From positions 1 through 20,135 of IMG/VR virus record IMGVR_UViG_3300042544_002473: 20,135 bases of DNA, one strand, 5' to 3'. The notes under the pieces are model-generated. The model was not told the origin of the DNA and ran no database searches. It saw only the letters and a program-made list of their open reading frames with translations. Position numbers and translations under genes: made by a program. Position 1 is the first letter of the stretch; each line of letters opens with the position of its first letter. The DNA comes from a virus. Positions 3,609 to 18,296 of this stretch are shown in pieces.

Positions 3609-3683
3609 TGGAGCCTTGGGTCGGAGTCGAACCGACAACCCCCTGTTTACAAAACAGGCGCACTGCCATTGTGCTACCAAGGC
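3609..3683 (-). tRNA. tRNA-Thr, anticodon UGU, CCA encoded
   Basis: The full cloverleaf can be folded by eye. The acceptor stem GCCTTGG pairs with CCAAGGC over 7 bp, and the D stem is GCAC/GTGC. The anticodon stem CCTGT/ACAGG encloses the loop TTTGTAA, giving anticodon TGT (Thr, codon ACA and by wobble ACG). The variable region is GGGTT. The T stem GTCGG/CCGAC has loop TTCGACT. The 3' end is T followed by an encoded CCA, the form usual for bacterial tRNAs. It lies inside the leftward packaging operon between a basic small gene and the TTGACT box of the next genes, so it is probably processed from the operon transcript. Confidence 0.93.
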
Positions 3684-3738: not shown

Positions 3739-4023
3739 TCAGGCTTCCCAGGAGGACGCACCCTCCGGGCCTTCAAGAAGCGCCCTTGCGCCGATGTTCA
3801 AGGCGCTGGTCAGGACACCATCGAACTCTTCCTTGGCTTCCCCGTGTCCGAAAGTAACCACCTTCCATCGATCATTGGGGGTATGGACGATCATAACCCC
3901 CTTGTCGCAGTAGGGTTTGATCTTCATCAAGGCATCCATCACCGCAGCCTCCATCTGCTCGTCCAGGTGCGTGGAATAATCAGGGATCTTGGGCTTCTTC
4001 CGGCTCCGCTTCTTCTTAGCCAT
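3739..4023 (-). CDS. Small protein with basic N-terminus (94 aa), unknown
   Basis: The 94-residue protein has a Lys/Arg-rich first dozen residues (MAKKKRSRKKPKIP), then a helix with acidic and Ala residues (LDEQMEAAVMDALMKI). A beta-like segment follows (GVMIVHTPNDRWKVVTFG). The start ATG shares a base with the stop of the upstream HTH gene (TAATG), so the two are translationally coupled. No family is recognised. Its place just before the tRNA and terL suggests a packaging or head-related role, which is only inference from position. Confidence 0.7.
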   Translation of the reverse strand: MAKKKRSRKKPKIPDYSTHLDEQMEAAVMDALMKIKPYCDKGVMIVHTPNDRWKVVTFGHGEAKEEFDGVLTSALNIGARALLEGPEGASSWEA

Positions 4024-4594: not shown

Positions 4595-4712
4595 CGACAG
4601 CACACCTGTCAAGCCGATCAAAGCCCCCAGGCCAGGGTATTAGACGGCCTAATGACCAGTACCAGCAGGGCTTATTGCAGAAAAAGTCCAGGTGGGTGAA
4701 TCCGCCCGGTGG

Positions 4713-4747
4713 CCCCCCACCCCCCTCCCCCCTCCCCTCCCCCCCCC
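4713..4747 (-). other. C-tract: G-quadruplex motif on the minus strand
   Basis: Five C runs of 6, 6, 6, 4 and 9 bases are separated by single A or T bases. On the minus strand this is a G-quadruplex motif with one-base loops, a class known for high stability. The opposite strand could form an i-motif. The run is followed directly by GGGG, so its end is also palindromic. Homopolymer length may be uncertain because of sequencing error. Confidence 0.6.
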
Positions 4748-4756
4748 GGGGTCGTC

Positions 4757-4824
4757 CATAGGGAAAAGGCTATGCACCGGCCGGATCCATAGACCGGCCT
4801 CAATCCTATAGGGAAAGGCCTATG
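4757..4824. repeat. Repeated imperfect palindrome (two copies)
   Basis: CATAGGGAAAAGGCTATG at 4757-4774 recurs with small changes at 4806-4824 (core ATAGGGAAAGGCCTATG), 50 bases apart. Each copy has inverted CATAG/CTATG or TATAGG/CCTATG arms, as operator or protein-binding sites often do. Part-copies of the arm (CCATAG, CCTATGG) lie at about 4787-4792 and 4838-4844. No gene lies within 400 bases on either side, so the role is open. Confidence 0.45.
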
Positions 4825-4904
4825 ATCGAATCCTGACCTATGGCCCGATGATTAGCAAAGGTTATCAGGCCGATCAGTTTCCGTTGTCCAGCTCGGGTTG
4901 ACTG

Positions 4905-5323
4905 TCGCCCAGGCCCAGGCCCAGGATCCGGCCGGATCGGCCAGGCCGCCGGGCTTGTTGGCCGGTCGGCCCAGGCTGCCGGACGGGTCACCAGGCTGCC
5001 CAGGATGGCCCAGGAAGCCCGATCAGCACGGGGCCGGGCCGATCGGCCGATCCGGAGATCTGGCGGGCCTGGTGGGCCGGTTGTTTGTTAACTTTGGCGA
5101 GATCCAGGGCGGAGGCCCGGGCCGATCCTGGCCGATCCTGGCGGATCCGGTCGCCCGATCTCCGGAGATCCGGACGGATCCGGTCGGATCCTGGCCGATC
5201 CTGGAGGCCTGGCGGCCGATCTGAGGCCTTGCGATCCTGCCGGAGGCCTGGCGGCCGATCCTGGCGATCCTGGCGGATCCTGGGCGATCCTGGCGGCCGA
5301 TCCGGAGATCCGGAGGCCCAGGC
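4905..5323. repeat. GATC/GGCC/CCGG/CCTGG repeat island 1
   Basis: This gene-free stretch is built from a small vocabulary of short words (GATCCTGG, GATCCGG, GGCC, CCGGCC, GGCCCAGG) in changing order. About 20 GATC sites fall within 5041-5320 by eye count, against roughly one expected. The left part (4905-5060) is richer in GGCCCAGG and GGCCGG, the right part in GATC. Open frames run through it on both strands, but their translations are only Gly/Arg/Pro/Asp/Ser shuffles, so none is called. It lies just downstream of the terminator of the unit ending at 5381. Confidence 0.85.
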
Positions 5324-5353
5324 AACAAAAAGGCCGCCCAGGATCGGGCGGCC
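5324..5353 (-). terminator. Intrinsic terminator of the 6536-5381 unit
   Basis: Leftward, an 8-bp perfect stem GGCCGCCC/GGGCGGCC with a 6-base loop (5332-5353) is followed by TTTTT-GTT. It lies 28 bases after the stop of the 34-residue membrane peptide. This is a textbook rho-independent terminator. Confidence 0.88.
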
Positions 5354-5380
5354 GTGGCCGGTGATCTCGGCAGCGCAGGA

Positions 5381-5485
5381 TCAGATCAGACCGGCAGCGA
5401 TCGCCACGATCAGCCAGATCGAGGAGATCAGGAGGCCGATGGCGATCCAGGCGATCAGACCGGCAGCGATCTCGGCGGCCTTCAT
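5381..5485 (-). CDS. Tiny membrane peptide (34 aa)
   Basis: The 34-residue ORF is almost wholly hydrophobic (Ile, Leu, Ala, Gly, Trp) after MKAAE, so it would span the membrane once. It contains an internal repeat: IAAGLI near the start and again at the end. Its ATG overlaps the TGA of the 121-residue gene by four bases (ATGA), and a strong terminator follows, so it is the last cistron of a three-gene unit. Much of it is encoded by GATC words (CTG-ATC, GCG-ATC). A second unit (see 9067-9129) also ends with a tiny membrane peptide. A lysis, toxin or membrane-anchoring role is possible; none is shown. Confidence 0.6.
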   Translation of the reverse strand: MKAAEIAAGLIAWIAIGLLISSIWLIVAIAAGLI

Positions 5486-5847
5486 CGGTTGCCTCCTTTC
5501 TTGCGGCCGGGCTTGGCGGCCTTGCCATCAGTCCAGAGGCTACCGAGGGCCAGGGCTACCTTGCCAACCGAAGGGGCGGGCTTGGCGGCCTGGGCGGCCT
5601 GATCGGCAGCGATCCGCTCGGCCCGGGCCTTAGCCTGGGCCTGGGCGATCTTCTCGGCCGAGATCGCCAGGAGGCGGGCCGTGGCCCGCTCCTCGGATTT
5701 GAGGTTATGGATCGCCAGGGCGAGATCGGATCTCTGAGCCAGGAGACCATCGGCCAGGTCGATCAGGCCGAGCCATCGGGCTTCCCGGGCGGCCGACAGA
5801 AAGGCCTCATCCTGGGCGGCCGAGAGATCATCGAGCCAGTGGCTCAT
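5482..5847 (-). CDS. Ala-rich helical protein (121 aa), unknown
   Basis: The 121-residue protein is rich in Ala, Leu, Lys and Arg and is predicted mostly helical. An extended charged helix lies at about residues 45-95 (EERATARLLAISAEKIAQAQ), with a basic C-terminus (AAKPGRKKGGNR). It overlaps both neighbours by ATGA junctions (5844-5847 upstream, 5482-5485 downstream), so the three genes are translationally coupled. No family or catalytic motif is recognised. Its codons carry many GATC and GGCC words, unlike the genes right of 12 kb. Confidence 0.72.
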   Translation of the reverse strand: MSHWLDDLSAAQDEAFLSAAREARWLGLIDLADGLLAQRSDLALAIHNLKSEERATARLLAISAEKIAQAQAKARAERIAADQAAQAAKPAPSVGKVALALGSLWTDGKAAKPGRKKGGNR

Positions 5848-6536
5848 CGGATCGCTCCTTTCTGATCGGCGGCGGCCCGGTCGTCCTTAATCGCCTGATC
5901 GGCCTTGCGGTCGGCCTCCTGATCCTGGCGGATCTCGGCCTGCGTGGCAGCGATCTCGGCGAGATCCAGGCCGGAACAGTGGATGATCTGAACCAGGTCG
6001 TCAAAGGCCTTCGCCTTCGTTTGCAGGATCGCCTCGGAGGCCTGGGCACGGCGGAAGGCCCGGCGGGCCGGATTGGGATCTTCCTGGGATTCCCGATCTC
6101 CGGCGATCCGGTGATCTTCGGCGATCTCGAGCGCCACCTTAACCCGGTGCTGCATATCGGCGATCGGTTGAGCGGCCTGGGATCGGGCGGCCTCGAGCCA
6201 ATACTCGCAACGGCCACGCCATTGACTGATCCGCTCGGCCTTCCTGGTCAGGAAAAACGAAAGGCGGATCGCTTCCATCGCTACCCGGAAATTGAGATCT
6301 CGGATCTCCTCGGGCCGGATCGGGCGGCCGATCGCCGGAACATCGCCGGTTTCGTCATCGGCGGGCGGATCGATCCGCTCGGCCAGATCGGCAGCACGGG
6401 AGGCGATCTTGACCAGGCTTGTGATCGGGTCGTAGTTCGCCGGGATCCGCACATTGAGGAGATCCTGGAGGGTGGCCGAAGTCTCGGCCGGGAGGTTTGC
6501 AGGCTGGCCGCCTGCGGGCGTGATCGGGTGATTCAT
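5844..6536 (-). CDS. Helical protein (230 aa), first gene of its unit, unknown
   Basis: The 230-residue protein is mostly helical. The N-terminal 20 residues are low-complexity (Pro/Ala/Gly). A central region (about 80-170) contains RVAMEAIRLSFFLTRKAERI and QWRGRCEYWLEAARS, and the C-terminal 40 residues are a charged coiled-coil-like stretch rich in Asp, Ala, Gln and Lys. No family is recognised. The ATG at 6536 lies 31 bases after a TTGACT box, and the frame stops in an ATGA overlap with the next gene. The DNA is full of GATC and GGCC words, which in this frame give Glu-Ile, Asp-Pro, Ala-Ile and similar pairs. Confidence 0.75.
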   Translation of the reverse strand: MNHPITPAGGQPANLPAETSATLQDLLNVRIPANYDPITSLVKIASRAADLAERIDPPADDETGDVPAIGRPIRPEEIRDLNFRVAMEAIRLSFFLTRKAERISQWRGRCEYWLEAARSQAAQPIADMQHRVKVALEIAEDHRIAGDRESQEDPNPARRAFRRAQASEAILQTKAKAFDDLVQIIHCSGLDLAEIAATQAEIRQDQEADRKADQAIKDDRAAADQKGAIR

Positions 6537-6567
6537 CGGGGCCGATCCTGGGAAGCCCGGCCGGATT

Positions 6568-6573
6568 AGTCAA
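6568..6573 (-). promoter_or_regulatory. TTGACT box before the 6536 gene
   Basis: GGTTGACT reads leftward with 31 bases between the box and the ATG at 6536. No clear -10 is seen at 16-18 bases. It marks the left edge of repeat island 2. Promoter function is inferred from recurrence of the box at this distance elsewhere. Confidence 0.45.
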
Positions 6574-6618
6574 CCCCTCAGAAAACCCGTTCACCTGGTA
6601 TTTACTGATCCAAAAAAA

Positions 6619-6980
6619 ACGGCCGATCCGGCCGATCTGGCGATCCGGCCGATCCTGGGATCTGGAGATCCGGAGATCTGGAGATCCGCCGGGCCGGTGA
6701 TCCTGGCCGATCCGGAGATCCGCCGGATCCTGGATCTCGGCCGGTGGCCGATCTGATCCGATCGGATCCTTGCGCTGGATCTCGGCCGGTGATCCTGGCC
6801 GGTGATCTCGGCCGGTCGGCCTGGCCGGTCGCCGGATCCGGCGGGCCGGTCGCCGGGCCTGGCCGGTCGGCCGATCTCGGCCTGGGCCTGGGCCTGGGCC
6901 TGGGCCTGGGCGGGCCTGGGCGGGCCTACCGGCCTACCGGCCTACCCATCGCCTACCGGCCTACCGGCCTACCGATCTAC
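6619..6980. repeat. GATC/GGCC repeat island 2 with ordered sub-blocks
   Basis: This gene-free island lies between the terminator at 6984 and the promoter at 6568. From left to right it has a GATC-dense block (6619-6815, about 20 GATC), then GGCCGGTC-type words (about 6805-6875). A GGCCTG hexamer array follows (6879-6910), and then an 8-base GGCCTACC array (about 6922-6973, interrupted once). An A8 run lies at 6611-6618. Frames across it translate to simple Gly/Leu/Pro/Arg repeats and are not called as genes. Confidence 0.88.
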
Positions 6981-6983
6981 CGG

Positions 6984-7013
6984 AAAATAAAAAGCCCGCC
7001 GGGCGGGCGGGCT
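6984..7013 (-). terminator. Intrinsic terminator of the 8167-7035 unit
   Basis: Leftward, the stem AGCCCGCC/GGCGGGCT (8 bp, 5-base loop, 6993-7013) is followed by TTTTATTTT. It lies 21 bases past the stop of the 130-residue gene. The hairpin is flanked directly by the GGCCTACC array. Confidence 0.88.
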
Positions 7014-7034
7014 TGTCTGATCTACCGGCCAGGA

Positions 7035-7427
7035 TCAGGAGGGGCCAATCGGGAACGGCGGTTCATACCAATTTCGGCCCCGTTCGTGATCGGTCAACAG
7101 GCGACCGGCCTCGGCGATATCCAGGCGGCGGCAGGCCTCGGCAGCACCGGCCAGATCTTCGGCCTGCTCGGTAAACCTACGAACCCAGGCCTGATGTTGG
7201 GCCTTCGAGCAGGTCGGCGGGCGATCCGCCGGGATCGTGCGGACGAATGAGGCGGCGGCCCGGGCGGCCTTCGCCACGGCGGCGAGATCCTTTCGCTTGG
7301 CGGCGGAGGTGATCCGGCGGGCTACCTCACCGGCGGCCACGGATTCCGGGATGTTGGCAATACAGATCCAGCCGAGGCAACCGGCGAAGGATCGGGCGGA
7401 CTTGAATATCTCTAGGGTCATTTTCAT
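7035..7427 (-). CDS. Ala/Arg-rich helical protein (130 aa), unknown
   Basis: The 130-residue protein is helical and rich in Ala and Arg. It has scattered Cys (CLGWIC near residues 17-22, and later single Cys), a basic helix (RRITSAAKRKDLAAVAKAAR) and a Pro-rich end (WYEPPFPIGPS). No family is recognised. ATG 7427 is chosen because it lies three bases past the stop of the 245-residue gene; a second ATG at 7421 is also possible. A frame extending to 7649 would overlap that gene heavily and is rejected. It forms a two-gene unit with that gene, closed by a strong terminator. Confidence 0.72.
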   Translation of the reverse strand: MKMTLEIFKSARSFAGCLGWICIANIPESVAAGEVARRITSAAKRKDLAAVAKAARAAASFVRTIPADRPPTCSKAQHQAWVRRFTEQAEDLAGAAEACRRLDIAEAGRLLTDHERGRNWYEPPFPIGPS

Positions 7428-7429
7428 TT

Positions 7430-8167
7430 TTATTTTTTGGTGGGGGAAAAGGAAGCGGCATTGATCTCGGCCTTGCGGGCCTGGGATCCGTGGAACCGGA
7501 AACCGATCAGCACGGCCCGGCCGGGCCTGCTGCATAGGCCGCAAGTTGCGCAAGAGATATTGTCTCGGGTCTGAGCCGGGCAAACGATACCACGGCGACC
7601 GGCCGGGGTAGTGAATCGCTCCGGCGTGCTTTCCGGAACAGTCACACAAACCGGCAGGCCGAGATCGGCGATCTTGTCGGCGTGCTGCAAATTATTCGCC
7701 GAGGCGTTGACGATCAACCCGGCGGCGATCGCTGCTTTGATCGTGGCGAGATTGGCACGGGCGGCCGGATCCTGGCCGGGCAAGATCGGTTTATGCGAAT
7801 AAGTGAAACCGGTTTTTCCGGCGGCCTTCGAGGCCTTCGCCAATTGCAGCACGGCACGGCGATCAATCTTGTTTCCCAGGCCCGGGAGATCTCCGGCCTG
7901 ATTGTGTCGCCAGATCTTGAACGGCGACCGGATCAGGGCGGCCTTGAGATCGGCCAGGAAGTCGGCCCAGGTCAGGCCACGATCACCGGCCGAGATCTTC
8001 GCCCAGTGGATCGCAAGCGGGCCGCCTGCGGCATAGCAGCCGGTGACGAAGAAAGGGCAGCCGCTCCAACAGGTTTGCTTCCCTGATGTTGTGACGACAA
8101 GCGGGCCGGTTTTCTGATTATCAGATCGGGCGGTGATATGGAAACGGACGGGATCGGGCGGGTTCAT
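7430..8167 (-). CDS. Conserved Cys-rich phage protein (245 aa), function unknown
   Basis: The 245-residue protein has two Cys clusters. The first is C33-x3-C37-x6-C44 (CWSGCPFFVTGCYA) and the second C196-x9-C206-x2-C209-x2-C212 (CPAQTRDNISCATCGLC). Between them are motifs I associate with a widespread uncharacterised phage family, which I recall as DUF7227: FKIWRHNQAGDLPG, GFTYSHKP, and VNASANNLQHADKIADLG. The Cys arrangement suggests a metal site, either zinc or an iron-sulfur cluster; radical-SAM CxxxCxxC is not present. The ATG at 8167 is preferred over an in-frame TTG at 8182. It is the first gene of its unit. The function of the family is not known to me. Confidence 0.78.
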   Translation of the reverse strand: MNPPDPVRFHITARSDNQKTGPLVVTTSGKQTCWSGCPFFVTGCYAAGGPLAIHWAKISAGDRGLTWADFLADLKAALIRSPFKIWRHNQAGDLPGLGNKIDRRAVLQLAKASKAAGKTGFTYSHKPILPGQDPAARANLATIKAAIAAGLIVNASANNLQHADKIADLGLPVCVTVPESTPERFTTPAGRRGIVCPAQTRDNISCATCGLCSRPGRAVLIGFRFHGSQARKAEINAASFSPTKK

Positions 8168-8211
8168 AGGATCAACAATCAAGGCGATCTCCTCGGCGAA
8201 GTAAACCAGGA

Positions 8212-8217
8212 AATCAA
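8212..8217 (-). promoter_or_regulatory. TTGATT box before the 8167 gene
   Basis: GGTTGATT reads leftward, 44 bases from the ATG at 8167, at the left edge of repeat island 3. It is inside a 12-base palindrome, CAACCGATCGGTTG. The box is a variant and the distance is longer than for the other TTGAC boxes, so this call is weak. Confidence 0.3.
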
Positions 8218-8221
8218 CCGA

Positions 8222-8508
8222 TCGGTTGATCTGATCAGATCGGGCGGATCCTGGCGGCCGGTGATCCTGGGCGGATCGCCTGATCTGATCCTGGCGGCCG
8301 ATCCGATCCGCTCGGATCCTGGCGATCGTGCGCTGGCCGATCCGGAGATCCGCCGGGCCGGTCGGCCTGGGCCGGTCGGCCGATCCTGGGCGGCCGGTGA
8401 TCCGCCGGGCCGGTCGCCGATCTCGGCCGGTCGGCCGGTCGGCCTGGCCGGTCGCCTAGCCTGGCCGGTCGGCCTTGCCTACCCACCTACCGGCCTACCG
8501 GCCTGGAA
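8222..8508. repeat. GATC/GGCC repeat island 3
   Basis: This gene-free island lies between the terminator at 8511 and the promoter at about 8212. It shows the same order of blocks as island 2: GATC-dense (about 8222-8355), GGCCGGTC words (about 8355-8475), then GGCCTACC words (8477-8503). The GGCCTACC type reappears beyond the terminator. Long frames exist but encode only simple Gly/Arg/Pro/Ala mixtures. Confidence 0.86.
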
Positions 8509-8510
8509 AC

Positions 8511-8534
8511 AAAAAGCCCCCGGCGTGCGGGGGC
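8511..8534 (-). terminator. Intrinsic terminator of the 8986-8563 unit
   Basis: Leftward, the stem GCCCCCG/CGGGGGC (7 bp, 5-base loop, 8516-8534) is followed by TTTTTG. It sits inside the GGCCTACC repeats, 29 bases after the stop of the 63-residue gene. Confidence 0.88.
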
Positions 8535-8535
8535 G

Positions 8536-8567
8536 GGCCTACCGGCCTACCGGCCTACCGGCCTACC
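8536..8567. repeat. Four perfect GGCCTACC units
   Basis: Four exact 8-base units lie in tandem between a terminator stem and the 3' end of a gene. The last unit supplies the TAG stop (8563-8565 on the minus strand) of the 63-residue protein. The same unit occurs in islands 2 and 3. Confidence 0.92.
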
Positions 8568-8754
8568 GGTCATCGCTCCTGGCGGCCTGGATCTTAACGC
8601 ACCAGTGATGGCCCGGGATCGTGATATCAATGTAGGCATCTACCCAATCCCTACCACCGGCATCCCGGTGATCCTTGATGACCTGCTTGATGAGGGCCAG
8701 TTCATCCTCGGCCTGCTTGCGGCCTTCCGGAGTGTTGATCGGTTGTTTGCTCAT
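8563..8754 (-). CDS. Small protein (63 aa), unknown
   Basis: The 63-residue protein has a helical N-terminal half (TPEGRKQAEDELALIKQVIK) and a short beta-like C-terminal half (DWVDAYIDITIPGHHWCVKI). It starts four bases after the stop of the 75-residue gene. Its last codons and stop lie in the GGCCTACC array, so the array may have replaced the original 3' end. No family is recognised. A frame extending to 8835 would run over the upstream gene and is not used. Confidence 0.68.
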   Translation of the reverse strand: MSKQPINTPEGRKQAEDELALIKQVIKDHRDAGGRDWVDAYIDITIPGHHWCVKIQAARSDDR

Positions 8755-11654: not shown

Positions 11655-12326
11655 CTATTGGCCGGTCGGCCGGTCGGCCGGTCGGCCTGGGGATTGTAAG
11701 CCTACCTCGGCAGCGATGCATACCTCGAGGGCCAGGCTGTATGGTACTTCGGCCCGCTCTGCGGCGGAGATGTCCTGGGCGATGCCTTGCTTCATACCGG
11801 CGTACTTCGGCGTGTGGCAGGGAGATCTGTGCCTACAGGTGGGCTTCAGCACCAGGGTCTCGGGGAATATGCCGAAGAGATCTGTCGGCTTCTGCCAGGT
11901 CATACCATACTGGCAATAGGTTACAGTACGGCGCTCGTACTTCTGGATGCATTGCATATACCTCATCTTGGCCCTGGGGTTTTCAATGATGACATACCTG
12001 GGTGCAAGTTGATCGATCAGGGAGATCGTATGCTCGAGTACCTTGAGTGCCAGTTTCGCCTTTATCGTCACCGGCTGATGCGGTGTTTCGTGATTGCGAT
12101 CAGTCCAGTTGGCCCAGCACCTGAGCAGGCTGAATGTTTCGCAAGGCGGAGAGGCCAGGATGATGTCCGGCCTCCACGGGAAATCGCCTACCTTGACATC
12201 GAGTATGTTCTTACAGATGTCCGGTTTGAAGCGCTTGGAAAAATCTACGCTCAGGACTTCGTGACCACGATCCTTGAATGCCGTACCCCAGCCACCAAGT
12301 CCTGAGAATAGATCGACTACCTTCAC
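11655..12326 (-). CDS. C5-cytosine DNA methyltransferase (223 aa)
   Basis: By family, this class transfers a methyl group from S-adenosylmethionine to C5 of cytosine in a specific site. Motif I is DLFSGLGG at residues 5-12, the catalytic Pro-Cys motif IV is SPPCETFS at 59-66 (Cys62), and a motif VI-like ENP is at 115-117 (ENV in classical enzymes). An R-x-T-x-x-YCQYG block follows at about 133-141. At 223 residues it is short for the family, with a reduced target-recognition region (about 147-175, containing C164, C170 and H171). The start is a GTG in a GTGA overlap with the upstream gene. The last 12 residues are encoded by a GGCCGGTC array. No restriction partner is seen, so it looks like an orphan, possibly self-protecting, phage enzyme. 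A non-standard role is possible because of ENP. Confidence 0.85.
   Translation of the reverse strand: MKVVDLFSGLGGWGTAFKDRGHEVLSVDFSKRFKPDICKNILDVKVGDFPWRPDIILASPPCETFSLLRCWANWTDRNHETPHQPVTIKAKLALKVLEHTISLIDQLAPRYVIIENPRAKMRYMQCIQKYERRTVTYCQYGMTWQKPTDLFGIFPETLVLKPTCRHRSPCHTPKYAGMKQGIAQDISAAERAEVPYSLALEVCIAAEVGLQSPGRPADRPTGQ
11660..11687. repeat. GGCCGGTC array in the 3' end of the methyltransferase gene
   Basis: Three and a half exact GGCCGGTC units lie inside the coding region, three bases before its TAG stop. They encode the tail PGRPADRPTG. The same unit is frequent in islands 2 and 3. Confidence 0.9.
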
Positions 12327-13048: not shown

Positions 13049-13519
13049 TTATTCCGGCGGCTTTTTCTCCGGCGGAATATCAATAATCGGCCCGTATCCT
13101 AGCAGTTTGTTGATGTCATCGGCCGAGATCTTGAGTTCGGCCTTAACATTTACAGTCGGTGCAGCGTCCGTAACCTTGTCCAACTTATCGATGGCGATGG
13201 CAGCGGATAGCATTAACTGACCGATGGGAATACTGTCTACCTCCGAGTCAAGCCGGTTGAGACCCTTGTCGATGAAGGAGGCCAGGCGTGCAGCGGTGCG
13301 GCGCTTGAACGCCAGCATATCCAATTGGCCTGCGTCCTGTAGGTTGTTGCGGATACCACGGACGACATCACCATCGACAGCCACAAGCCGGGCAGTCTCA
13401 GCCGGAGGTGTACCCTGCTTTAAAAGGCTCTCGATCCGCTTCTTAGTGGCAGGGGGCAGGGTGCGACCGGCCTCTTTCGGCGTGTCGTCTAGTCGCTCGT
13501 ACTGGGGATCTGTATCCAT
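13049..13519 (-). CDS. HTH protein, possible terminase small subunit-like (156 aa)
   Basis: The 156-residue protein has a homeodomain-like helix-turn-helix at about residues 24-60 (TKKRIESLLKQGTPPAETAR then VDGDVVRGIRNNL). A helical middle follows (GQLMLSAAIAIDKLDKVTDA), with a proline-rich end. The A-I-A-I-D-K-L pattern after an HTH reminds me of phage HTH proteins annotated as terminase small subunits or DNA-binding proteins. It is far from terL (10 kb) and transcribed divergently from the replication genes, so a regulator of the divergent promoter is an equal alternative. The ATG at 13519 is the natural start. Confidence 0.72.
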   Translation of the reverse strand: MDTDPQYERLDDTPKEAGRTLPPATKKRIESLLKQGTPPAETARLVAVDGDVVRGIRNNLQDAGQLDMLAFKRRTAARLASFIDKGLNRLDSEVDSIPIGQLMLSAAIAIDKLDKVTDAAPTVNVKAELKISADDINKLLGYGPIIDIPPEKKPPE

Positions 13520-13571: not shown

Positions 13572-14021
13572 ATGCATAAATACATCCTACCGATCGAGCC
13601 TCCCCCTACCCACCAGGCCGCCTTGCGGATCCTCAAGACAAGGGACGGCAGGCAGTTCATCGGGAAGATGGCGAAGTCTTCTGCCAAGAAGTGGGCAGTG
13701 GCTGCCACGCTGATGCTCAGCCAGCAGCGGACGATCAAGCAGGCTGAGACCATTGATGCTCCCTGCATCGTCAGCATTACATTCTACTACCCTCATACCA
13801 AGGAGAGCGAGAAGTTCTGCAAGCGCACGAACCAGACCCACATCGCCAAGGCTACCCGACCTGATCTAGACAACCTAGCCAAGTCCGTGCTGGACGCTAT
13901 GGTCGATGCCGGTGTGCTGAAGGATGACGGGGCGATCGTTGAACTTGGCCTGGCAAAGTATTATGCAGCGGAACCAAAAGTAGTGGTTGACATTGATGTT
14001 CACCCTGTGTTTGACTCCTGA
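13572..14021 (+). CDS. rusA: RusA-family Holliday junction resolvase
   Basis: The 149-residue protein is close to the RusA family length. RusA dimers cut Holliday junctions made during phage recombination or replication. The defining motif is present at residues 96-102 (RPDLDNL), followed by helix KSVLDAMVDAGVL and the paired DD at 118-119, then K129 in GLAKYYA. These are the Asp/Lys active-site positions of the family. An N-terminal strand with Pro-rich loop (ILPIEPPPTHQA) fits the family's first beta strand. First gene of the rightward replication/recombination operon, 9 bases before the exonuclease gene. Confidence 0.9.
   Translation: MHKYILPIEPPPTHQAALRILKTRDGRQFIGKMAKSSAKKWAVAATLMLSQQRTIKQAETIDAPCIVSITFYYPHTKESEKFCKRTNQTHIAKATRPDLDNLAKSVLDAMVDAGVLKDDGAIVELGLAKYYAAEPKVVVDIDVHPVFDS
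13987..13992 (+). promoter_or_regulatory. TTGACA box before the exonuclease gene
   Basis: A perfect TTGACA lies in the 3' end of the resolvase gene, 38 bases before the ATG at 14031, with TTTGAC at 17 bases. It is inside coding sequence, so it may be chance; it is listed because it fits the recurring distance. Confidence 0.3.
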
Positions 14022-14030
14022 TCTCTCCCT

Positions 14031-14834
14031 ATGAGTACCAAAAATAAAGTCGTTAAGAACCTGCCCTTCGCCCAGTATAAGAGCGAGCCTGCTGTCAACG
14101 CTTCTTTCCTCAAGAAGTTTGCGGTGTCTCCCCTGTACGCCAGCACTGACGAGTTCTCCTCCTCCGCCGCCACCGATCTGGGTTCGTATGTCCACGCCCT
14201 GACCATTGACCCGGCTAGCCTTGAGAACTTTGCCTGCCTCCCGACCACGGGAGAAGGTAGCAAGAAAGCCCGTGACGAGTGGCGTAAGAATAACCCGGAG
14301 GGCGTGCTGATCTCTCCTTCCGCTATGGAGCAGGGCAAGGCTACTGCCCAGGCGCTCAAGTCTTACTCTCCGTTCGCCGACCTGATGAGCCGTGAGCCTG
14401 ACACCGAGGTTTCTATCTTTGCCCAGCATCCCAGGTATGGATGGGATATCAAAGCCCGCATCGACATCCTGCTCGATGATGGCGACCTGATGATCCTTGG
14501 GGATGTGAAGACATATGGCAAGCCGCTCACCAAGAAGTCGCTGTTCTGGGATATCCGTGACCGGGGCTATGACCTGCAACTGGTCTTCTACCGCCGGATC
14601 ATCCAGACTGTCCTCAATCGCACGCCGGATGAGATGGCTTTGTACTTTGTCGAGACCGAGACCAGCGCCCACGATTGCGTCAAGGTCACGCTCGATGAAG
14701 GCTGGCTTGCCCACGCCGAAATGCGTCTGGACGAGTACTTCCGGTTGTATGACGAGTGCCACAGCACGGGGATCTTCCCTGGCTTCAACTTCGGCAAGCC
14801 GCTCACCCTCTCCCTGGGAGACAACTTGTCGTGA
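14031..14834 (+). CDS. PD-(D/E)XK exonuclease (RecE/exodeoxyribonuclease VIII-like)
   Basis: The 267-residue protein has a PD-(D/E)XK nuclease core. H55 lies in GSYVHAL, E126 in DTEVSI, D145 in the KARIDILL strand, the D158-x-K160 signature in LGDVKT, and the downstream Q183-x-x-x-Y motif in DLQLVFYRR. This arrangement is that of RecE C-terminal/exodeoxyribonuclease VIII-type phage exonucleases, which resect double-stranded ends to leave single strands for an annealing protein. The Rad52-like gene 2.6 kb downstream would be that partner. It ends in a GTGA overlap with the initiator gene. Confidence 0.85.
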   Translation: MSTKNKVVKNLPFAQYKSEPAVNASFLKKFAVSPLYASTDEFSSSAATDLGSYVHALTIDPASLENFACLPTTGEGSKKARDEWRKNNPEGVLISPSAMEQGKATAQALKSYSPFADLMSREPDTEVSIFAQHPRYGWDIKARIDILLDDGDLMILGDVKTYGKPLTKKSLFWDIRDRGYDLQLVFYRRIIQTVLNRTPDEMALYFVETETSAHDCVKVTLDEGWLAHAEMRLDEYFRLYDECHSTGIFPGFNFGKPLTLSLGDNLS

Positions 14835-15490
14835 ACGAGCCTAAGGAAGGATTCGGCCTCTGGATTCCAGGGGCTGTCCTCTCACGCACTGACATCAGCC
14901 TAGAGGAAAAGTGCCTCTACGGCCTGCTGGAGGTGCTTGACGGGGGCAAGGGGTGCTGGGCATCCAACGACTGGCTTGCGACCCGTCTGAGCGTCAGCGA
15001 GAGGGCAATCCAGCGATACCTTGCCAGGCTTGAGGAGTTGAACCTGATCGTGAAGGTGGTCAACGCCGAGGCCGGTAACCAGCGCCGGGTGCAGACCATT
15101 GGCACGCAGGCTATCGTTACCCCCTCACGCCAATCTGTCACCCCCCTCACGCCAACTTGTCGTGACCCTCACGCCAATCTGTCGTCCAAGAGTACAAAGG
15201 AGAATAAAGAAGAGTTAGATACACCCCAAACCCCATTGCCCCACGGAGAGAATTTCAAGAGGGCTTGGAACGAATGGGTGATCTATCGAACCAAGACCAA
15301 GAAGCGTCTGTCCCGGTTCGCCCAGGACAAGCAACTGAAGATCCTTGAGGGTCTCACGGAACAGGAGTGCATTGACTGCATCAACCGATCCATCGCTAAT
15401 GACTGGCAGGGACTGTTCCCAGAGAAGAACAGGAATAGTAAATCTTTTTCTAAAATTCTAACCCGTGAGGATCACAGCAATGGTTTCTAA
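14831..15490 (+). CDS. Replication initiator-like wHTH protein containing the origin (219 aa)
   Basis: The 219-residue protein has an N-terminal winged-helix domain (about residues 12-80). LSRTDISLEEKCLYGLLEVL is a helix, and WASNDWLATRLSVSERAIQR is an HTH of the phage O/RepA type. A flexible middle (about 95-130) is followed by a C-terminal helical region (FKRAWNEWVIYRTKTKKRLS onward). The GTG at 14831 overlaps the exonuclease stop. The three 22-bp-spaced iterons lie within the flexible middle, exactly as in the lambda O gene, so this protein probably binds them. The DnaC-like loader is two genes downstream. Confidence 0.82.
   Translation: MNEPKEGFGLWIPGAVLSRTDISLEEKCLYGLLEVLDGGKGCWASNDWLATRLSVSERAIQRYLARLEELNLIVKVVNAEAGNQRRVQTIGTQAIVTPSRQSVTPLTPTCRDPHANLSSKSTKENKEELDTPQTPLPHGENFKRAWNEWVIYRTKTKKRLSRFAQDKQLKILEGLTEQECIDCINRSIANDWQGLFPEKNRNSKSFSKILTREDHSNGF
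15122..15235 (+). other. Putative replication origin: three iterons plus A-rich stretch
   Basis: Direct repeats of CCCTCACGCCAATCTGTC lie at 15122-15139, 15144-15161 (two mismatches) and 15166-15183, with an exact 22-base period. Because 22 is not a multiple of three, the copies are read in three frames (PSRQSV, PLTPTC, DPHANLS). The repeat is therefore kept at DNA level. The following 15184-15235 is rich in A (AAAGGAGAATAAAGAAGAG), like an unwinding element. This matches the lambda ori plan. Confidence 0.78.
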
Positions 15491-15704
15491 GGAAGACATC
15501 GAACGCCTTGGTTTTGACGCTTGGGCTGACAATCAGTTCGTTAACCTCATCGAAAACTTTGTGATGCCGGGACACGGCAATGTGCGGATTGAGGATATGG
15601 ACTTCACAGCCAAACTCAACTGGGACGATGCTATGATCCATTGCGTCCTGCGAGCCTACACCCACGAAGGTTGGAAGACCTACGAGAAGCAAATCAAGCG
15701 ATGA
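15480..15704 (+). CDS. Small unknown protein between initiator and helicase loader (74 aa)
   Basis: The 74-residue acidic protein is alpha/beta mixed, with KEDIERLGFDAWADNQFVNL as a helix pair and then MDFTAKLNWDDAMIHCVLRA. No family is recognised. ATG 15480 is used; an in-frame GTG at 15465 with the same frame is possible. It overlaps the initiator end by 11 bases and ends in an ATGA overlap with the loader gene. Its position suggests a replication accessory role, by context only. Confidence 0.72.
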   Translation: MVSKEDIERLGFDAWADNQFVNLIENFVMPGHGNVRIEDMDFTAKLNWDDAMIHCVLRAYTHEGWKTYEKQIKR

Positions 15705-16393
15705 GCAAAGGCTACTGCAATGGTTGCAAGGGGACGCTGTCCCCTATGCTGGACACCACCAAGAATGTCCTAGTCCATCGCTACTACACCTGCAAAGCGT
15801 GCGCCGTGTCCGGTAAGACCACGCACTGGGACTACCCCTTTGCCTATGATCAGGTGATGGAGAAGCACAACCTCGTATGGCTGGATCATCACCCGGATTA
15901 TCCCAAGGCTTTCTTGGACACCGATGTGAACCTGCTCTCCGACAACCTGCGCAAGGTCATTGGCTGGTCTCCTGCTACCAAGGCCAGCCTGCTCCTGCAC
16001 GGCACGACTGGCACGGGCAAGACACGCACGGCCTGGCACATCTTTAACCGACTATGGTTGCAGAACTTCCCAGAGAAGGCAGTATGGTTACCTATGCGCA
16101 AACTGGAGATGGCTATCGAGAAGGGGTTCGATGACCACAAGCACGGACAGGTGCTGGACTACTTCTGCAATGTCCCCCTGCTGTGCTTCGATGACCTAGG
16201 CAAGGAGAGGCTCACCGCCCGTATGGAGTCTGATCTATTCGCCATCATTGATGAGCGCACCAGCAACCTGCGCCCTACAATTATCACCACGAATTATAAT
16301 GGCACTACCCTCCTCGACAGGTTCAATAACAAGGAGACTGGGGAAGCCCTCCTCCGCAGAATCCGTGAGTACTACACAGCCGTTCACGCTTAA
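15701..16393 (+). CDS. DnaC-like helicase loader ATPase with zinc-binding N-terminus
   Basis: The 230-residue protein is close to DnaC length. Residues 6-34 hold C6-x2-C9 and C31-x2-C34, a likely zinc site. The AAA+ domain has Walker A GTTGTGKT at 101-108, Walker B LLCFDD at 160-165, sensor I-like TTNYN at 196-200 and a C-terminal LLRRIREYY with candidate arginine finger. By family, it delivers the replicative helicase to the origin. No DnaB-type helicase is in the window, so it may load the host enzyme or one encoded elsewhere in the phage. The ATG overlaps the previous stop (ATGA). Confidence 0.87.
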   Translation: MSKGYCNGCKGTLSPMLDTTKNVLVHRYYTCKACAVSGKTTHWDYPFAYDQVMEKHNLVWLDHHPDYPKAFLDTDVNLLSDNLRKVIGWSPATKASLLLHGTTGTGKTRTAWHIFNRLWLQNFPEKAVWLPMRKLEMAIEKGFDDHKHGQVLDYFCNVPLLCFDDLGKERLTARMESDLFAIIDERTSNLRPTIITTNYNGTTLLDRFNNKETGEALLRRIREYYTAVHA

Positions 16394-16418
16394 ACAGACC
16401 AACTCTACCTTCCCCCCT

Positions 16419-16631
16419 ATGCGGTGGGAGGTCAGGTCTGGATCAGATTCCTATCAGGTAGACCTGCTGGACAGCGTATGCTCTTGTAGTCACTGGCGCT
16501 TCCGGCTCTTCGATAAGCCTGAGGGCGAACGCAGGTGTAAGCACATCATCGCAGCCCGTGAAGAGGCCATTAACATTGTCATCAATAGTATGAAGAAAGT
16601 GGTTGACCACAAGTTCAGCACAGGCCAGTAG
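16419..16631 (+). CDS. SWIM-type zinc-finger protein (70 aa)
   Basis: The short protein contains the C-x-C-x(n)-C-x-H pattern of SWIM zinc fingers: VCSCSHW, then after 15 residues RRCKHII. It is preceded by the usual beta strand (YQVDLL). SWIM domains bind DNA or proteins, and phage versions commonly sit in replication clusters. ATG 16419, behind a TCCCCCCT leader, is chosen; an in-frame GTG at 16365 would give 88 residues and a 29-base overlap with the loader gene. A TTGACC box for the next gene lies in its 3' end. Confidence 0.78.
   Translation: MRWEVRSGSDSYQVDLLDSVCSCSHWRFRLFDKPEGERRCKHIIAAREEAINIVINSMKKVVDHKFSTGQ
16604..16609 (+). promoter_or_regulatory. TTGACC box before the lysozyme-like gene
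   Basis: GGTTGACC lies 32 bases before the ATG at 16642, inside the 3' end of the SWIM gene. No clear -10 is seen (CAGTAG at 17 bases). It may let the lysozyme-like gene be expressed apart from the replication genes. Confidence 0.35.
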
Positions 16632-16641
16632 TCATTTACTT

Positions 16642-17106
16642 ATGAAGCGACTACTGTCATTCCTGATCGCCTGTTCAACCTGCCAGGCAAAGTCTATTGT
16701 CACCGAGGACTTCGTTAACAAGGTGGGCATCATCGAGTCTAATCTCAAGACGGACGCAGTCGGAGATGGCGGTGATAGCCTTGGCGCATTCCAGATTAGT
16801 CGCCGGGCTTGGGCTGATGCTGTTGCCTACAGTACCATCAACTCCGGGCCTCACGAATACACCTTGCCCATCGACTGGAAGGGATACGCTCACGACTTTG
16901 AGATGTCGCATCGTGCTGCCACGCTGATCCTCAAGATGCACGAAGAGCGTATGCGTAAGAACCGCATCAAGCCCACCGAGTTCAAACTTTATATGGCCTA
17001 CAATATGGGTTACTACGGAGCAGCCCAGCACGGCTTTGACATCAATCAGACCTGGGGTTTCCGCAAGGCTATCCTTACCAGGGCTAAAGTTATTCTATCA
17101 CGATGA
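16642..17106 (+). CDS. Exported lysozyme/lytic transglycosylase-like protein (154 aa)
   Basis: The 154-residue protein starts with a short signal sequence (MKRLLSFLIACSTCQA). LIAC at residues 8-11 fits a lipobox, so it may be a lipoprotein or have a conventional cleavage after CQA. The mature part resembles the goose-lysozyme/transglycosylase fold: catalytic-type Glu at 32 in GIIESNL, GDGGDSLGAFQI at 41-52 (the G-x-S-x-G-x-x-Q-I signature), and YMAYNMGYYGA later. It probably cuts peptidoglycan, either for lysis or another step. Its place among replication genes is odd for an endolysin, and no holin is obvious next to it. It ends in an ATGA overlap with the next gene. Confidence 0.75.
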   Translation: MKRLLSFLIACSTCQAKSIVTEDFVNKVGIIESNLKTDAVGDGGDSLGAFQISRRAWADAVAYSTINSGPHEYTLPIDWKGYAHDFEMSHRAATLILKMHEERMRKNRIKPTEFKLYMAYNMGYYGAAQHGFDINQTWGFRKAILTRAKVILSR

Positions 17107-17396
17107 GCGCCCGAAACATCCAGTCCATCCTGCGCATCGCACAGGAAGAAGCGAACCGCCTAGACGGGGAGATCAACATCTCCAACGAACAGGTGGTGTA
17201 TCTGTCAGACAAACTCACCAAGGTCTTCCACTCCCTGCGTCAGTTCAATGAGACTCACGGACGAGACCTCAGCCCGGATGTGCTTGACGCATTCAACGCC
17301 GCCTGGCGTAACTACGAATCCTCCTTTGATACCTGGCAGTCCTACCAGAAAAATGATCAGCAGATTTATCTGGACACCACACTCGACCTTGAGTAA
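17103..17396 (+). CDS. Unknown helical protein (97 aa)
   Basis: The 97-residue protein is helical and acidic at its end (DTTLDLE). It has a long heptad-like stretch (IQSILRIAQEEANRLDGEIN, then VVYLSDKLTKVFHSLRQF) and a Trp/Tyr-containing helix (FNAAWRNYESSFDTW). It is coupled to the lysozyme-like gene by an ATGA overlap. No transmembrane segment is present, so it is not a holin of ordinary type. Family is not recognised. Confidence 0.72.
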   Translation: MSARNIQSILRIAQEEANRLDGEINISNEQVVYLSDKLTKVFHSLRQFNETHGRDLSPDVLDAFNAAWRNYESSFDTWQSYQKNDQQIYLDTTLDLE

Positions 17397-17420
17397 TCAC
17401 ATCTTCTCCACACCACACAT

Positions 17421-18296
17421 ATGAAAGAAATCATCGAAGCACTCCGCAAGCCGTTCAGCGCCGACCGCATTGAATGGCGACTCCAATCGTCCGGCGAAAA
17501 GCAGGACGGCAGCATCTGGGCCAAGTGCCTATGCTACATCGACAATCGTGCCGCTATGGAACGACTCGATGAAGTCTATGGTATGAACTGGTCGCACTCC
17601 GAGGAGTTCAAACAGATCGGCACGCAGGCTGTCTGCACTGTGACCATCACCATCGAAGGCAACAAGGACTCCCTCTGGCCTTACCGCACTGTCTCCGGCT
17701 CTTGCGCCGTGGAAGCCAACGGCGACATCGACCCGTTCAAGTCCGCCGCATCTGGTGCGATGAAGAGGGCCGTGGTGAACCTGGGGGTCGGTCGTTATCT
17801 ATATGACTTGCCTGAGGCTTGGGCGATCATCGACCCCAAGGGTAAGTATGACGGCAAGACCAAGAATGGTACTCGCTTCCGCTGGAATCCTCCGCAACTC
17901 CCGGCTTGGGCTGGCGGTGGCGCTGACACTAACTACGCCGTCAACCAGTCTGCCGCTGTCGAAGACTTCATCGACACCCTTCCGATTGTCCCGGCTGTGA
18001 AGCCCAAGGCCGCTCCGCTCCCGGCTGGTACTGCTGATGACCCCACCATCCCGTTCGGCGATGCCAAGGGTCAGCCGCTGTCCTCCCTGCCGCTCAAGGG
18101 GCCGAAGGATAAGAAGTGCGCCGACCTCTATTACTGGGCGAAGGTGTACACCCCCAAGCCTTACAATGGAAAGATCTCGCAGAAAGACATCAACCTCAAG
18201 TCCCGTGCCGAAGCCCTGTACGCTAACGCTACTGGCGCTTCCGAAGCCCCGTCTCCTGTGGTTCAGGACGAACCGATTGACGAAGTCCCCTTCTAA
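17421..18296 (+). CDS. Rad52-like single-strand annealing protein (291 aa)
   Basis: The N-terminal 130 residues match the Rad52/Rad22 annealing fold used by phage recombinases: LRKPFSADRIEWRLQS, then KCLCYIDNRAAMERLDEVYG and, near residues 104-130, DPFKSAASGAMKRAVVNLG followed by VGRYLYDLP. By family, it coats single-stranded DNA and anneals complementary strands, working with the upstream exonuclease. Residues 140-290 are Pro/Ala-rich and partly disordered. The last residues (DEPIDEVPF) look like the acidic-Pro-Phe tip of bacterial SSB proteins. The leader before the ATG is CA-rich (CCACACCACACAT), with a TGGACA/TAATCA pair at 17-base spacing upstream. Confidence 0.85.
   Translation: MKEIIEALRKPFSADRIEWRLQSSGEKQDGSIWAKCLCYIDNRAAMERLDEVYGMNWSHSEEFKQIGTQAVCTVTITIEGNKDSLWPYRTVSGSCAVEANGDIDPFKSAASGAMKRAVVNLGVGRYLYDLPEAWAIIDPKGKYDGKTKNGTRFRWNPPQLPAWAGGGADTNYAVNQSAAVEDFIDTLPIVPAVKPKAAPLPAGTADDPTIPFGDAKGQPLSSLPLKGPKDKKCADLYYWAKVYTPKPYNGKISQKDINLKSRAEALYANATGASEAPSPVVQDEPIDEVPF
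18277..18282 (+). promoter_or_regulatory. TTGACG box before the 18315 gene
   Basis: TTGACG lies 32 bases before the ATG at 18315, inside the acidic tail codons of the annealing-protein gene, with TAACCG at 17 bases. It belongs to the recurring TTGAC series; function is inferred. Confidence 0.35.

Follow-up and report, generated by a model that had tools for sequence, protein, structure and literature searches.

A probable replication origin of palindromic iterons inside the HTH_36-type initiator gene of an uncultured phage

Positions 15122-15223 of a 20,135-nucleotide stretch of viral DNA (IMG/VR record IMGVR_UViG_3300042544_002473, here called the window) very probably form a theta replication origin located within the gene for its own initiator, a protein that would bind the iterons; we put the probability of this reading at roughly 0.87. 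It is supported by selection at the DNA level on the repeats and the adjoining tract, by the palindromic form of the units and by their position over a linker that is predicted to be disordered. Further support comes from the uniqueness of the array in related genomes and from the exchange of the iterons in lineages whose winged helix is different. The features are collected in Table 1.

Table 1. Coordinates of the initiator gene, its origin elements and the loader gene in the window
Feature	Position	Strand	Remarks
Initiator gene	14831..15490	+	219 aa, GTG start; HTH_36 N-terminus, probably disordered linker, helical C-terminal domain
Winged-helix DNA-binding domain	14864..15100	+	codons 12-90; AlphaFold model, Pfam, structural alignment
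Low-confidence linker, probably disordered	15101..15247	+	codons 91-139; contains the whole iteron array and the purine tract
Iteron 1 (CCCTCACGCCAATCTGTCACCC)	15122..15143	+	gene frame 0
Iteron 2 (CCCTCACGCCAACTTGTCGTGA)	15144..15165	+	gene frame 1; 15147-15165 is the full palindrome TCACGCCAACTTGTCGTGA
Iteron 3 (CCCTCACGCCAATCTGTCGTCC)	15166..15187	+	gene frame 2
Purine-rich, A+T-enriched tract, candidate unwinding element	15188..15223	+	synonymous divergence 0.008, codons 119-131
Helical C-terminal domain	15248..15487	+	codons 140-219; WxEWxxYR ... SIANDWQGLF; common to other phage initiators including phiES15 O
DnaC/IstB-like AAA+ helicase loader	15701..16393	+	230 aa; Pfam and PHROG matches

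Within the initiator gene, three copies of CCCTCACGCCAAYYTGTC follow each other head-to-tail at an exact 22-bp pitch (15122-15187), and 16 of 18 columns were identical across all three at this period. When the gene was shuffled 2000 times in each of two ways, the maximum at period 22 was 13/18 columns for synonymous-codon shuffles, which preserve protein sequence and codon usage, and 10/18 for codon-order shuffles. The pattern CCCTCACGCCAANYTGTC, allowing up to three mismatches, occurred four times in the window versus 0.13 expected. The unit is a near-palindrome: the full form obtained from 45 pooled copies is TCACGNCAANTTGNCGTGA, with a variable centre and a left arm that is more constant than the right, and the middle iteron of the window matches this form completely. 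The iterons are read in gene frames 0, 1 and 2 and thus yield unrelated peptides. A previous inspection of the DNA (the sequence-only reading) had described the three copies, their exact 22-base period and their unrelated peptides from three frames; these observations were confirmed, with starts at 15122, 15144 and 15166 and a column identity above all shuffles. The A-rich stretch that it had seen on one side corresponds to the purine- and A-rich tract at 15188-15223.

A 13-bp match to the iteron at the gene start (14822-14834, within 14820-14837) was considered as an extra operator and rejected. Most relatives keep only part of it, not a copy, and two of them (L013 and L015) begin with ATG in a different context; we take the match as chance. 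Right after the purine tract, at 15224-15245, there is a C-rich stretch (CCCCTTACCCCTTCC or similar), which is found at the same place in relatives, and the O gene of phage phiES15 (L126) has AACCCCCCTAACCCCCC after its own tract. These C-rich stretches may reflect merely proline codons.

The N-terminus of the initiator matched HTH_36 (PF13730; residues 21-73, E 8e-9) in Pfam with 35.6 bits, above the curated cut-off of 25, and the protein matched PHROG 678, 'replication initiation O-like' (E 2.7e-15). An AlphaFold model showed a winged helix at approximately residues 12-90 (pLDDT mostly 70-87), a low-confidence stretch at 91-139 (pLDDT < 50 at residues 91-118 and 120-133) and a helical C-terminal domain at 140-200. 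The model agrees with the earlier placement of the array between a winged-helix N-terminus and the C-terminal part. Because the repeats and the tract encode the low-confidence stretch, the signal in the DNA falls on the part of the protein that is probably under the least constraint. Structural alignment (VIA-align) of the modelled N-terminal domain with the RepA N-terminal domains 4pql, 4pt7, 5kbj and 4pta gave Z scores of 9.0-9.8 over 92-98 residues (9.8 for 4pql/4pt7); since these scores were tied with those of many winged-helix regulators, they indicate a common fold and not membership. A sequence search of solved structures with the initiator returned weak matches only, to winged-helix regulators and an unrelated prohibitin chain, and Foldseek gave no match with E < 0.9 for the C-terminal domain alone. 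This domain recurs in other phage initiators, phiES15 O among them.

The initiator gene is followed by a 74-aa ORF and then by the DnaC-type loader gene that the sequence-only reading had recognised downstream, now identified by matches to IstB_IS21 in Pfam (E 9e-7) and to PHROG 50, 'DnaC-like helicase loader' (E 5e-25). The region 13572-18296 is a replication and recombination cluster comprising a RusA-like resolvase, an exonuclease VIII-like PDDEXK protein, the initiator, the DnaC-like loader and a Rad52/Erf-like annealing protein. Elsewhere in the window, a tRNA-Thr gene (anticodon TGT; 3609-3683, - strand) lies upstream of the terminase gene, and 4700-8600 has 62-70% GC versus ~54% elsewhere, and is full of GATC-rich repeats and of short units in tandem, for example GGCCTACC and GGCCGGTC. 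At 11660-11687, at the end of the DNA methyltransferase gene, there is a related array of 8-bp units. The GC-rich segment with its tandem units is shared with related contigs in a patchy manner only.

Comparison of the repeats in related phages had been suggested as a check. The array is kept at the same place and pitch in all 14 distinct close relatives in IMG/VR (74-88% identical), although the first copy is degenerate in L014 and the copies of L015 carry substitutions. Synonymous divergence in this group was 0.068 in iteron codons 98-119 and 0.008 in tract codons 119-131, versus 0.31 before and 0.36 after array and tract, and the lowest 22-codon window elsewhere in the gene had 0.186. This drop in the repeats and the tract shows that the DNA itself is under selection. 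A similar dip (iterons/tract versus elsewhere) was present in two independent initiator groups, 0.213/0.184 versus 0.402 in one and 0.133/0.100 versus 0.292 in the other. The sequence-only reading had deduced selection from the three reading frames. Its conclusion stands, but the argument alone does not, because a recent duplication would look alike; it is the relatives that demonstrate the selection.

In 10 related contigs the iteron pattern occurred two to three times per contig, solely at the initiator site, and the reversed pattern, used as a control, had 0 matches. A sister clade (seven loci, ~50% protein identity) carries at the same place a different palindrome, CACGAAR-N4-YTTCRT, with a 23-bp pitch. 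Where the winged helix diverged, the iterons have thus been exchanged for others and not just scrambled. The one close genome match is too short for host assignment: it is a contig of 9.5 kb (L032) from a Verrucomicrobiota MAG, with the same protein as L008. A contig from a Planctomycetaceae MAG (L033) encodes an initiator whose C-terminal domain is that of the window protein, and five degenerate repeats stand ~23 bp apart at 3775-3910; an ATPase ORF lies downstream of that initiator.

The comparison was extended to 82 initiators, gathered by HTH or C-terminal motif and grouped into 37 clusters at 60% identity; the clusters thus reflect this motif search and do not sample initiators at random. 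Three-copy arrays were scored against synonymous-codon shuffles (p <= 0.01), with periods from 15 to 44 allowed. Significant in-gene arrays were found in 18/37 clusters, with a period of 23 bp in nine clusters, 22 bp in six and 24 bp in three, starting anywhere from codon 83 to 136; only 2/74 control ORFs from the same loci passed, with periods of 20 and 15. The test also recovered the known iterons of lambda O. The remaining 19 clusters had no significant three-copy array, and some of these had two clear copies. The units exceeded shuffles in palindromy (summed arms 91 vs 59 +/- 3.4); arm length was used as the measure in place of a first score that included the central spacer and was a poor measure. 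The 50 bp on the 3' side of the arrays had on average 13 points more A+T than their surroundings (p 8e-5), the 5' side showed no enrichment, and the 3' side was also purine-rich (66% vs 56%). A shared tract motif was not established: the common 6-mers AGAAGA, AGATAA and ACAAAG were above the means of their shuffles, but the highest count, 9, was equal to the largest shuffle maximum. The survey, more than the single locus, is the part that a specialist might not expect.

These data bear on other possible roles of the array. It could be an operator and not an origin, so that the initiator, bound within its own gene, would repress transcription as a roadblock. Palindromic sites for a winged-helix protein within its own operon would fit autoregulation, and origin and operator roles can coexist. 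However, repression leaves unexplained both the extreme synonymous constraint on the adjoining purine tract and the A+T enrichment, which across clusters is found on the 3' side of the arrays only. Moreover, the array lies ~290 bp into the gene, and most relatives have not kept the match at the gene start as a copy. We regard an operator without origin function as unlikely. It is also quite improbable that the iterons serve another phage or host protein, for example in partition or packaging. The initiator is only the putative iteron-binding protein; nevertheless, the array sits in the initiator gene, its sequence changes where the initiator N-terminus differs, and direct precedents exist in lambda O and pSK41 Rep (PMC7466680, PMC5703833).

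An action of the repeats in RNA, as mRNA hairpins governing translation or termination, is very improbable. The units are inverted repeats, and the second copy was paired by RNAalifold, but compensatory double changes were seen at 0/15 predicted pairs and the energy was weak (-5.3 kcal/mol). In addition, the 22-24 bp spacing across clusters, about two helical turns, points to duplex DNA. Slippage can generate tandem repeats, and a recent, functionless duplication of this kind has hardly any probability left: it is refuted by conservation, since the array persists in relatives with as little as 74% protein identity, in which synonymous sites of the rest of the gene are scrambled, and unrelated palindromes with a near-identical pitch recur in other clusters.

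Origin iterons within the initiator gene have a direct precedent in lambda O (PMC7466680), and the sequence-only reading had equated the window with the lambda O/ori plan. The layout agrees. As in lambda ori and the Stx phages P27 and 933W, mid-gene iterons made of inverted-repeat units are combined with an A+T/purine-rich tract on their loader-proximal side and a downstream loader gene; as in lambda, the iterons lie between the N- and C-terminal domains of the initiator. The N-terminal domain and the loader type do not agree. Lambda O has a Phage_rep_O domain (PF04492), which was found in lambda O and phiES15 O at 6e-36 and not in the window initiator with its HTH_36 domain, and the lambda loader is P-type whereas that of the window is DnaC/IstB-like AAA+. 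The window initiator is therefore not a strict member of the lambda O family. BLASTP of the window initiator against lambda O gave no significant match; PHROG 678, a broader family, matches both the window initiator and lambda-type O. The four iterons of lambda are 18 bp long and start 20, 24 and 23 bp apart; the window has three at exactly 22, and the iteron sequences differ. The phiES15 O protein has a C-terminal domain like that of the window initiator but a lambda-type N-terminus and repeats of its own, TTAGCCAACTCGGCTAA; consequently, the iterons do not follow the C-terminal domain.

In the staphylococcal RepA_N plasmid pSK41, Rep boxes central in rep are bound by the winged-helix N-terminal domain and encode a linker that tolerates deletion, and the C-terminal domain contacts DnaG (PMC5703833). 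The location of the window array and the disorder predicted by the model fit such an in-rep origin encoding a linker. In pPR9 Rep, the N-terminal domain and the origin were swapped together for a PF13730 (HTH_36) phage-type module (PMC5703833). We consider pPR9, in which an HTH_36 N-terminus replaced the RepA_N domain along with the origin, the nearest precedent. The C-terminal domain of the window initiator differs from those of pSK41 and pPR9, which are Firmicutes plasmids, and RepA_N (PF06970) was absent from its Pfam matches at E up to 0.01. Among phages, the initiators of Oceanospirillum phage GJ44 and Pseudomonas phage Cruim01 have, like that of the window, a PF13730 N-terminus (below the curated cut-off in Cruim01). 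Both contain in-gene repeats at 23 bp with an adjoining purine-rich tract, the iteron sequences being different from those of the window, and in GJ44 the initiator gene is followed by an AAA ATPase gene. The window fits these HTH_36 phage initiators with in-gene origins by its palindromic repeats of the 22-24 bp class in linker codons and by its downstream loader. No earlier record of the window iteron was found in the open-access literature.

By analogy with lambda O (PMC7466680) and pSK41 Rep (PMC5703833), the mechanism may work like that of lambda ori with a different DNA-binding domain. Dimers of the initiator winged helix would bind the three palindromic iterons, probably on one face of the DNA because 22 bp is close to two turns. 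The resulting complex would help to melt the adjoining purine/A-rich tract, and the C-terminal domain would recruit the DnaC-like loader and the host helicase.

Some observations count against the origin reading. GC skew, for which the sequence-only reading had suggested to look for an inflection at ~15.2 kb, has its cumulative maximum at 13507 in the window (20086 in G001), ~1.6 kb before the iterons and near the start of the rightward genes, and in G005, which has a 127-bp end overlap, the extremes lie elsewhere. GC skew is thus not diagnostic as an origin marker. In the window, the A+T content of the tract is only ~61%, and the 40 bp near the origin with the highest A+T content (75%) are at 15421-15460, in the 3' end of the initiator gene. 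Here, codons 201-210 show a somewhat reduced synonymous divergence (0.166). In the survey, half of the clusters had no significant three-copy array. The segment 15421-15460 could be an alternative unwinding site or an additional one.

Origins within initiator genes are already established for lambdoid phages and RepA_N plasmids; the arrangement itself is known, and the comparison brings out its generality and regularity. The present locus provides a confident origin prediction for a group of uncultured phages, with an iteron not recognised before. Tentatively, we suggest that HTH_36 phage initiators form a large family of self-contained initiator-origin cassettes, in which a lineage-specific palindromic iteron matched to the winged helix recurs at a pitch of about two turns (22-24 bp), whatever the reading frame, and is followed by a purine-rich unwinding tract; the N-terminal domain and the iterons would move as a unit between C-terminal domains. 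If this is true, both the origin and its recognition code are readable from sequence alone. The survey rule (palindromes in linker codons at 22-24 bp, then a purine-rich tract) could predict origins in many metagenomic phages, and the winged helices with their presumed cognate palindromes, of which there are many pairs, would be material on how initiators choose their DNA.
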